Assembly: GCF_947494025.1 (NCBI RefSeq)
Contig: NZ_CANLTQ010000001.1
Location: forward strand, 248,001-312,000
DNA length: 64,000 nt
From: an uncultured Jannaschia sp.
GTDB lineage: Bacteria; Pseudomonadota; Alphaproteobacteria; Rhodobacterales; Rhodobacteraceae
Reading direction: 5' to 3'
Under the pieces are notes generated by a model that had not been told where the DNA came from, ran no database searches, and saw only the letters and a program-made list of their open reading frames with translations. The position numbers and the translations under genes were made by a program. Positions 50,090-53,403 of the stretch are shown here, one piece after another (the first letter of the stretch is position 1; the number at the start of each line of letters is the position of its first letter).

Positions 50090-51112
50090 TCAGGAGAACA
50101 GGTCCGGCGCCCGCGGCGGCGCCGCCAGCCCCAGATGCGTCCAGCCCTTGTGGCCGAGCGCGCGGCCCCGGGGCGTGCGCGCGATCAAGCCCTGCTGCAG
50201 CAGGAAGGGCTCGATCACCTCCTCCACCGCGTCGCGGCTTTCCGACAGGGCGGCGGAGATGGTCTCGACCCCGACCGGCCCGCCGCCGTAATTTTCCGCG
50301 ATGAGCCGCAGGTAGCGCCGGTCCGCCCCGTCGAGGCCCAGACGGTCCACGCCGAGCCGGGTGAGCGAGCTGTCCGCGATCTCCCGCGTGACGGTCCCGT
50401 CCCCCTCGACCACCGCGAAATCTACCACCCGGCGCAGGAGGCGCCCGGCGATCCGCGGCGTACCCCGCGCGCGCTCTGCGATCTCCTGCGCGCCGTCCTC
50501 CGTGGCGGGCGCGCCGAGCAGGCGGGCGCCCCGCGTGACGATCTGATGCAGCTCCGGCACCGTGTAGAACTCGAGCCGGGTGGGAATGCCGAACCGGTCG
50601 CGCAACGGCGTCGTGAGCAGCCCGAGCCGCGTGGTCGCCCCCACCAGCGTGAACGGCTGCAGGTCGATCCGCACCGTTCGCGCCGACGGCCCCTCCCCGA
50701 TCACGAGGTCAAGCGCGAAATCCTCGAGCGCGGGATAGAGCACTTCCTCCACCACGGGGTTCAGGCGGTGAATCTCGTCGATGAAGAGCACGTCGCGCGG
50801 CTCGAGATTGGTCAGGATCGCGGCGAGGTCGCCGGCCTTCGCGAGCACCGGCCCGGAGGTCATGCGGAACCCCACGCCCAGCTCGCGCGCCATGATTTGC
50901 GCCAGCGTCGTCTTGCCCAGTCCGGGGGGCCCGTGGAACAGGACGTGATCCATCGCCTCGCCCCGCCGCCGCGCGCTCTCGATGAACACCCCCAGATTCG
51001 CACGCGCCTCCGCCTGCCCGATGAACTCGTCGAGCCGCTGCGGCCGCAGCGCCCGGTCGTCGGAGATCTCGTCGGGCGCGTCGGCATCGAGCATCGGATC
51101 GCGGTCCATCAT
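50090..51112 (-). CDS. ruvB: Holliday-junction branch-migration motor RuvB
   Basis: 340 aa AAA+ ATPase that drives branch migration with RuvA. Walker A is GPPGLGKT at residues 61-68, Walker B LFIDEIHR near 115; a winged-helix C-terminus follows. Two adjacent ATG codons (51112, 51109) overlap the stop of the GIY-YIG gene upstream. No separate ribosome-binding site is visible, so ruvB translation probably depends on that gene. Confidence 0.95.
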
Positions 51113-52005
51113 GAGTTCAATCCATGCGTGCGCGTATGGAGGCGCTGCATCCAGCCGTGCTCCAGCTTCGTGATCGCTTCCACCGGCATGTCGGGCGAAA
51201 CACGTTCGAGGATCGAGAACTCGAAGGTCGCGGGATCGCGCGCCGCCAGCTTCGCCGTCACGCCCACATTCCGCGCGACATGCGCCCGCCACCGTCCGAG
51301 GAGGTTCGCTTCCCCGTAGGCCGAGCCGACATAGCGTGCGCCGTCGTCACGGCAGGTGATCAGGTAGATGCCGCGCCATTCCCGAAGCCTCGAAGCCCAG
51401 CCGGGCGGAATGGCGCGCAGTTGCGCCGTGGGCAGAACCCATTCGCGCCAGTGCGGCGGATCGGCATCGAAGACCGAGCTTTCGTGAATGGCACGGATCG
51501 CCGCTTCCAGGTTCTCCGCCCGACGCACGTCGTTCGGCGTCAAACGTACCGACACGACGAGGCGTCCCCGAAGCTCAGCCAACCTGTCGTCCAGAGGCAG
51601 GTCGAACCAGACGCGCTTCTGAAGCTCGGCGGAGGTCTCGAGCTCATTCAGGTAGCCGAACGTTTCTCGCAGAAAGACGATCTCGGGATCCGCGAGGATC
51701 TCTTCCTTCGGACGATGCCGGAAGCCCTGAGTCCGGTAGGCGCCGACGGAAAGCATCCGACTGTGGGACGAAGGGATGTCCTGCCCGATCTTGACGAAGG
51801 ACAGGACCCATGGCCTTCCGCGTTTCAGAGCGGATTCCGCACCCAGGCTGTGCAGGGACTGAAAGACCTCCATGGCCCGGCGCCGCGTCTTCACGAGGGA
51901 CGGCAGAACCTGCTCGAGATTGCCGTGGTTCGGCGAATGCAGCATGACATTCGCATCCATTTGCGCGATCCCGACCCGGTCGAGCACGTCATGTAGCGTG
52001 AACAT
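51109..52005 (-). CDS. GIY-YIG nuclease-domain protein inserted between ruvA and ruvB
   Basis: 298 aa. The C-terminal third is a GIY-YIG domain: GIYLI at 212-216, YVGSAYGE with the partner tyrosine near 226, the arginine in LLGRWRAHV and a late glutamate in [17 protein letters not shown]. The N-terminal 200 residues have no recognised domain but include [16 protein letters not shown] and [15 protein letters not shown] blocks. AAGGAG, formed by the last ruvA codons, lies seven bases before the ATG, and the stop overlaps the ruvB ATG. It is therefore built into the ruv operon. Family relatives elsewhere are often found with mobile or defence genes; a role in junction or DNA-end processing is inference. 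Confidence 0.75.
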
Positions 52006-52009
52006 CGCC

Positions 52010-52648
52010 CTACTCCTTCGGGGCCAGAAGCTTCAGCGCGGCGCGGATGACGCCGGCCGTGTCGGTCGCGCTGTCGGCGGCCTGCGCCACGGCGCGGGCG
52101 GCGTCGACGGGCGCGTAGCCAAGATTCGTCAGGGCCGACATGGCCTCCGCCTGCGCGCCGGATTGCCCCGGGGGGGCGAGCTCGCCCGACGACGCGGGGG
52201 CGGGCACCTCGACCAGCGGGTCGGCGCCCGCCTCCTTGAGCATCATCGCCGGCGCCTTGCCGCGCAGCTCGTTGACCACGCGGAGCGCGATCTTCGGACC
52301 GACCCCGGGCGCGGCCTTGACCGCGTTGGCGTCGCCCAGCGCGATCGCCCGCGCCACGCCCTCCGCCCCCAGCACACCGAGAATCGCGAGCGAGCCCTTG
52401 GCGCCGATCCCCTGCACCGAGGTGAGGAGGCGGTGCCATTCCCGCTCCCCCTGGGTCAGGAACCCGAAGAGCTGCAGCAGATCCTCACGCACCAGAAGCT
52501 CGGTCCAGAGCGCGACCGGCGACTTCACCGGCGGCAGGGCGGCGATGGTGCGGTCCGAGCAATGGACGACATAGCCCACGCCATTCACATCCAGAAGGAC
52601 GTGGTCCTCCCCCTTGTGGTCCAGCCGTCCGGTCAGGCGTCCGATCAC
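52010..52648 (-). CDS. ruvA: Holliday-junction DNA-binding subunit RuvA
   Basis: 212 aa. N-terminal OB fold starting [19 protein letters not shown], helix-hairpin-helix motifs around [14 protein letters not shown] and [13 protein letters not shown], and a C-terminal RuvB-contact domain after an acidic/Pro linker. Start is GTG at 52648, four bases after the ruvC stop. Its stop lies four bases before the GIY-YIG gene. Confidence 0.95.
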
Positions 52649-52652
52649 CCGC

Positions 52653-53150
52653 TCAGGCCCGCATCGCGGCCGCAAGGCGGCCGGAGGATTGCAGGTGGAA
52701 TGCGTGGCACATCGCAATGGCGAGCGCGTCGGTCGCGTCGGCCGAATCCGGGTCGCAATCGGGGAGCTGCAGGCGAACCATGTGCAGGACCTGCGCCTTG
52801 TCGGCATGGCCCACGCCGACGACCGCCTTCTTGACGGCATTGGGCGCGTATTCCCCGACGCGGAGCCCGGCCTGAGCGGGGACGAGCATCGCGACACCCC
52901 GGGCCTGGCCGAGCTTCAGCGTGCCCTGTCCGTTCTTGTTCACGAAGGTCTGCTCGATCGCCGCGGCCTCCGGCGCCTGCGCCACGAGGACTGCGCGCAG
53001 AAGCGTGTAGAGCGACAGGAGCCGGTCGCCCAGCGCCACGCCCTCGGGCCGGCAGGTGCCGCTCGCCACATGGCGGATACGCGCGCCCTCGGTCTCGATG
53101 ACGCCCCAGCCACAGGCGCGAAGCCCCGGATCAATCCCCATCACACGCAT
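52653..53150 (-). CDS. ruvC: Holliday-junction resolvase RuvC
   Basis: 165 aa nuclease that cleaves Holliday junctions. Catalytic acids are visible as D7 (MGIDPG), the E of [10 protein letters not shown] near 66 and the aspartates of [11 protein letters not shown] near 137-143. It heads the ruvC-ruvA-GIY-YIG-ruvB cluster. Confidence 0.95.
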
Positions 53151-53403
53151 TCGACTTGCCCGATGTTCTTGATTTGATCATGGCGTAGCATAGCCGCCTC
53201 CGACAGGCCACCCGCCGGACGGAGGCGCGGTCGGCGGCCATCCCGCGATGTCTTTACGTTTCGCTTACCGGTCATGCGACGGACGCATATCGGCCATGCC
53301 TGCATGATATTTGTGCGGTTTGCTGACCCGCCCTAGATGCACAGCAGAGGCGGTCGGCAGGACCGCCACTTTCCGTTCCGTACAATCTGACAGGATTACC
53401 GCC

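Follow-up and report, generated by a model that had tools for sequence, protein, structure and literature searches.

The ruvCAB operon of an uncultured Jannaschia sp. carries, between ruvA and ruvB, the gene of a UzuA-type and probably anti-phage nuclease, which on balance we take to have entered this junction once, to have been exchanged horizontally there among hosts, and to have left the translation of ruvB coupled to its own. The window analysed is the whole stretch of 64,000 nt, within which ruvC, ruvA, a 298-codon gene and ruvB follow one another in that order, all on the minus strand. UzuA-type proteins are already known; the part that appears to be new is a clade of them lodged beside ruv genes at a fixed site in a core operon. 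A literature search at title level found no report of a GIY-YIG or UzuA-like gene at ruv, and gene insertions into ruvCAB are mentioned for Vibrio (PMC3323433). The features of the locus are as follows.

53165-53179, minus strand: LexA-like box GATC-N7-GAAC, its 5' end 29 nt before ruvC
52653-53150, minus strand: ruvC, the first gene of the operon (Pfam RuvC, 1.4e-42)
52010-52648, minus strand: ruvA, with a GTG start (TIGR00084, 1.8e-50)
52013-52019, minus strand: Shine-Dalgarno sequence GAAGGAG in the final codons of ruvA, 5' of the UzuA-like gene
51109-52005, minus strand: UzuA-like GIY-YIG nuclease gene, 298 aa, 897 nt including the stop (PADLOC UzuA, 2.9e-45; Pfam GIY-YIG, 2.6e-6)
51412-52005, minus strand: fast-evolving N-terminal region of the nuclease, residues 1-198
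51142-51372, minus strand: GIY-YIG domain, residues 212-288 by Pfam
51109-51112, minus strand: ATGA overlap of the nuclease-gene stop and the ruvB start
50090-51112, minus strand: ruvB (NF000868, 1.5e-149)

An earlier note, made from the sequence alone, had described an 897-nt gene inserted between ruvA and ruvB with a C-terminal GIY-YIG domain, a ribosome-binding site formed by the last codons of ruvA, and a stop that overlaps the start of a ruvB without a visible site of its own, and this anatomy is confirmed in every part. The Pfam match to the GIY-YIG domain scores 28.1 bits against a curated cut-off of 22.6, and the nuclease gene starts 4 nt past the ruvA stop. Pairing of the 20 nt upstream with the 16S tail amounts to -7.6 kcal/mol for the nuclease gene and to -3.1 kcal/mol for ruvB, the latter close to the median for random positions (-3.4). 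Among 35 gene-bearing loci (counting separately L039 and L077, whose proteins are identical) the median is again -3.1 before ruvB and -7.4 before the nuclease gene itself, whereas the value before ruvB is -5.2 where ruvA and ruvB are ≤29 nt apart (83 genomes; Mann-Whitney p 0.0007) and -4.6 where the gap is 30-200 nt (33 genomes). A Shine-Dalgarno core like GAAGGAG precedes ruvB in 60 of the 73 gene-less genomes with a short gap. The tight coupling of the gene with ruvB proposed in the same note is both real and recurrent, with the ATGA overlap found in 32 of the 37 relatives in which ruvB is present and a distance of -4 to 6 nt from the ruvA stop in 32 of the 34 in which ruvA is present. Even in L078, where htpX lies between ruvA and the nuclease gene, the latter still overlaps ruvB. 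Translation of ruvB is apparently coupled to the nuclease gene upstream.

The whole protein matches the PADLOC profile UzuA (Uzume, PDLC03973) at E 2.9e-45, with residues 1-297 aligned to positions 2-276 of the 278 in the profile, and each half does so alone (E 1.3e-9 for the N-terminal 200 residues, E 2.2e-32 for the last 99). The former result overturns the previous statement that the N-terminal 200 residues resemble nothing. At 153 bits, the window protein scores below its prophage kin (238 for L109 and 235 for L116), and it also matches PHROG 26160, a family of unknown function, at E 7.3e-10. A PADLOC family name alone is no functional test, and the anti-phage role is to be read as predicted. 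All 33 ruv-linked copies have Y214, Y225, R238 and N297, the last sitting outside the Pfam match (residues 212-288), and all but one have E282, and the nuclease therefore looks complete; these are the two tyrosines, arginine, glutamate and C-terminal asparagine expected to be catalytic by comparison with I-TevI. Membership of the UvrC or Slx1 families, in which GIY-YIG is N-terminal and accompanied by other family-specific domains, was considered and rejected, as the domain is C-terminal here and no UvrC or Slx1 model matched at E up to 1.

For the N-terminal part, Pfam returned no family for the window protein at E up to 1 and sequence profiles found no solved structure. A model of residues 1-200 built from 51 sequences has a mean pLDDT of 92 and a pTM of 0.88, and its four best PDB matches are all chains of the Zymomonas mobilis ASCH domain (ZmASCH), at weak E values of 0.029-0.093. 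Apart from GIY-YIG folds, these weak ASCH matches were the only ones to stand out in the structure searches, and the likeness is best regarded as a weak hint short of a family assignment. Residues 199-298 are on average 63% identical across the 33 ruv-linked copies (528 pairs), and residues 1-198 33% identical. Such a combination of a conserved cutter with a diverse reader would fit a nuclease with changing targets better than a finder of one fixed ruv junction. Whole-gene dN/dS ranges from 0.10 to 0.25 in five pairs, ratios that are rough since dS is 0.80 to 2.9, and the G+C content of the nuclease gene is lower than the average of its two neighbours, ruvA and ruvB, at all 34 loci compared, by a mean of 7.7 points.

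The gene is rare at the level of whole genomes. A match was found in 22 of 394 family genomes, beside ruv in 12 (that of the window included) and, in the other 10, with no ruv gene in the flanking sequence retrieved (at most 1.5 kb to either side); among class genomes 15 of 385 have a match, and within the same limits only that of the window has ruv genes alongside. Linkage to ruv among relatives, which the earlier note had named as the way to check its idea, proved strong on named genome contigs, where 38 of 70 relatives adjoin ruv genes, all in the same orientation and all in Rhodobacterales records or Neomegalonema; this is no unbiased rate, because the query alignment consisted of 13 ruv-linked and two other rows. 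The remaining 32 have no ruv gene in view within up to 6 kb, some of them on short contigs. Relatives also occur in 363 plasmid records, of which 15 cover at least 80% of the query, all at <60% identity, and two phage records hold relatives covering over half of it. One plasmid copy has transposase, group II intron and recombinase genes in its vicinity, and another has umuDC and ardC. Ten loci with relatives were found on viral contigs, three of which, judging by their length, appear to be identical to the contigs of L117, L118 and L119.

Most junctions in the family are free of the gene. RuvB is present in 146 family genomes, and 129 junctions beyond that of the window were examined, the 16 unfetched ones comprising six known carriers, one at a contig end (G098) and nine low-ranking. 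The 126 assessable junctions include one with the gene (G049), 83 with a gap of ≤29 nt (3-4 nt in 46 of them), 33 with a gap of 30-200 nt and nine with other inserts. A scan of the gaps >25 nt in these junctions recognised no decayed copies (domain E <0.05). The M48 protease gene htpX lies between ruvA and ruvB in L201, L214, L218, L219, L221, L237 and L249, as well as alongside the nuclease gene in L078. Within the genus, 20 genomes comprise four with an intact gene, three with a recognisable decayed copy (G396, G404 and G397), 12 with none and one that could not be judged; the genus tree is mostly unresolved, and L040 is scored on it as having none although its locus is without the ruvA side. 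In another genus member, L044, the ruvA-ruvB gap of 813 nt holds an unrelated 258-codon open frame.

When 72 relatives are placed in one tree, a single branch (SH-aLRT 95, obtained by a quick method) separates the 36 ruv-linked rows, which include two identical pairs, from all the others. The sister lineages are accessory genes, a number of which reside in prophages. In the alphaproteobacterial sister group, genera of different name can have almost the same copy, and records named Tabrizicola and Rhodobacter, for instance, hold identical ones. Thirteen sister-group loci were read, and phage-like neighbours are common to ten of them and to none of L111, L115 and L121; in five of the ten these neighbours belong to tape measure, minor tail, tail terminator, head protease and portal families. 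The UzuA-like genes of L109, L110, L112, L114, L116-L120 and L123 stand amid Rhodobacterales prophage tail genes and, where neighbours were identified, on the strand opposite to them, which would suit expression in a lysogen.

The nuclease tree is in conflict with host markers. Over the 33 ruv-linked loci, the ruvCAB data reject three of the four GIY clades tested (p 0.003, 0.019 and 0.0001; L081 with L092 is kept, p 0.10), and the GIY data reject four of the five ruvCAB clades tested (the four Jannaschia are kept, p 0.16). RpoB, a marker distant from the locus that bears out the conflict, was compared for 12 of 14 requested genomes, leaving out G133 (no hit) and G207 (split) and including G118 with a partial nuclease. 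The nuclease tree places G131 with Jannaschia and G049 with G037, both of which RpoB rejects (p 1.9e-49 and 0.0007), and the GIY data in turn reject G049 with Jannaschia (p 2.8e-5). The groups given to the AU test were chosen after viewing the trees, and all these p values therefore flatter the case for conflict. Two Neomegalonema MAGs have RuvB proteins 92% identical and nucleases 35% identical. Given the conflict of the nuclease tree with ruvCAB and rpoB, these comparisons can be taken to show that alleles moved between genera into the same ruvA-ruvB junction. A recent replacement of the allele in the window itself was considered, as dS against the sister species is 0.80 for the nuclease gene and 0.30-0.40 for ruvC, ruvA and ruvB, yet it is not claimed because identity is likewise no more than about 77-90% in adjacent stretches outside ruv.

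These observations bear on three other accounts of the gene, of which the junction-processing partner of RuvAB proposed in the earlier note, cutting branched DNA, now seems very unlikely. It would agree with the overlap and coupling with ruvB, with a dN/dS of 0.10 relative to the sister species, indicative of purifying selection, and with the 38 of 70 relatives beside ruv. A physical partner should, however, track RuvAB, and the partnership is not supported: only 12 of the 394 genomes of the family have the gene at ruv, most relatives lack it, it decays within the genus, and its tree is in conflict with RuvCAB and RpoB, as is also seen in the divergent nucleases of the two Neomegalonema MAGs. 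The alternative offered in the same note, a selfish nuclease settled in the operon, came nearer the truth in its mobile part; its closest kin, however, are not typical homing endonucleases but UzuA-type proteins, of which several are encoded in prophages. More specifically, a free-standing GIY-YIG homing endonuclease would target the gene-less ruvA-ruvB junction, cut it, be copied in by repair, spread, decay and be lost, and this, the chief competing account, we regard as possible though rather doubtful. Such a cycle explains exchange at one site most simply, since it accounts for a single site and orientation, for a tree in conflict with host markers, and for the fact that spread from host to host at the same site is seen together with empty sites (73 of 126 genomes have a gene-less junction of ≤9 nt) and with decayed copies (relics in three of 20 genus members). 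The fold of the nuclease is in keeping with it: a structure search with the whole-protein model (mean pLDDT 81.5) led to the catalytic domain of I-TevI (E 9.6e-4), and in a viral structure library the domain is nearest to phage intron-type endonucleases. The TIGR01453 group I intron endonuclease model matches the window protein at E 3.3e-4, under the cut-off of that model, and homing-endonuclease models match some relatives (L130, 8.9e-8; L126, 0.0072; L137, 2.5e-5). Nevertheless, the full-length match of the window protein is to UzuA, and at E up to 1 none of the homing-endonuclease models in PADLOC and PHROGs matched it. A fixed target would be expected to conserve the recognition part, whereas residues 1-198 share on average a third of their positions at the same site, which argues against homing and is no disproof of it. 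The nuclease domain comes last, the reverse of the I-TevI order as given in PMC10448857, the prophage kin are encoded on the other strand from the tail genes, and in L078 the gene comes after htpX and not after ruvA.

An unlikely third account is that the gene, an accessory one that is either of defence type or neutral, has no affinity for this site and was spread by ordinary homologous recombination of the ruv flanks, through transformation or gene transfer agents, so that only the original insertion would be unusual. It overlaps with the explanation we prefer in its mode of spread, and would be consistent with the single clade, with ruvB as a well conserved flank (mean identity 80%) and with the sharing of the junction by other genes, htpX occupying it in seven of the 126 genomes. 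On the other hand, RuvA proteins average 64% identity between the genera among which the nuclease was transferred, and such recombination should be inefficient there.

Returning to the UzuA-type nuclease that entered once and was exchanged at the junction, the decayed copies suggest how it might persist. The relic in G397 retains about 22 N-terminal and 37 C-terminal residues in a single frame, that in G396 has lost its middle in frame together with the GIY and YIG tyrosines, and in G404 no more than a middle portion can be recognised, at a weak E of about 1e-5. In all three no stop interrupts the frame of the gene between ruvA and ruvB (0 stops, 9.3 expected from position-specific composition), and the other two sense frames carry 2 to 9 stops each. 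One caution is that the copies were stop-free to begin with. Stop-free antisense frames occur as well, one of three in G404 and two of three in G397, and the case is therefore strongest for G396. The tail of the gene keeps the ATGA overlap with ruvB in G396 and G397, and in G404 the frame, as read from the junction sequence, extends 11 nt into ruvB. A copy in Palleronia (L125, 5685-6285) has lost residues about 107-198 in frame and kept the nuclease motifs; its gap is nearly the same stretch as that missing from the G396 relic, and the middle may be a separable domain. From the stop-free relics we infer that selection may act on translation through the insert and not on the nuclease. A tentative extension, which we hold as a possibility and not as the expected outcome, is that a mobile anti-phage nuclease has become hard to delete, having taken over the ribosome-binding site provided by ruvA and left ruvB dependent on coupling, and that it persists as a stop-free leader after the nuclease has died. 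If true, this would be addiction via translation and not via a toxin.

A LexA-like box, GATCAAATCAAGAAC, lies at 53165-53179 just before ruvC. The GATC-N7-GAAC pattern alone is no rarer than chance (four in the window against 3.6 expected), and similar boxes precede recA (L288) and lexA (L290) in the same genome. The box is found at the same position in six of the ten assessable genus members with no gene or a decayed one, in two of the 33 ruv-linked loci (both Jannaschia) and in none of 121 other family loci. Being confined to the genus in this way it is best read as a genus trait, and an SOS link as the reason for the choice of site was rejected on its scarcity at ruv-linked loci and absence from the rest of the family.

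We posit that the fast-evolving N-terminal part would recognise a feature of foreign DNA, a modified base being one possibility, and that the GIY-YIG domain would then cut the invading phage DNA. The N-terminal part may diversify as a consequence of a role in recognising phage DNA, and the gene may persist partly because translation of ruvB came to depend on it. The recognition and cutting step is inferred from kinship and from the pattern of conservation. The genomes would provide a natural series, from no insert through intact and decayed copies to one pared down to a leader, of an accessory nuclease entering a core operon, and thus a case of persistence through translational coupling in which such a nuclease may become costly to lose. 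Moreover, a clade of the Uzume family at one fixed locus with a diversifying recognition part could help to find what that part reads.

Among the known systems closest to the window protein is Uzume, reportedly first described by Millman et al. in 2022. The protein shares with UzuA (PDLC03973, PDLC03974) the same full-length profile match, made by each half alone, and differs in belonging to a divergent clade with a fixed site in a core operon and an overlap with ruvB. The mechanism of Uzume is called unknown or poorly understood in PMC10482375, PMC12926258 and PMC10740426. GIY-YIG defence proteins also include PD-T4-3 and PD-lambda-1, as listed in PMC10952713. CMoRE is a type IV restriction enzyme made of a single GIY-YIG protein (PMC12923530). 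It is described there as likewise uniting a nuclease with a separate sensing domain, but it begins with the nuclease and ends with the sensor, the opposite order to that of the window protein, and has a GIYxY-YIG motif. I-TevI and the Seg-type homing endonucleases have in common with the window protein the GIY-YIG fold and lodging between conserved genes, while the window protein has a reversed domain order and a recognition part that is unconserved despite the fixed site. The UzuA-like genes of Rhodobacterales prophages (among L109-L123) form the sister group and encode proteins of the same length with 35-37% identity to the window protein, yet unlike the ruv-lodged copies they lie away from ruv, on the strand opposite their neighbours and, at 10 of the 13 loci, in phage-like surroundings.
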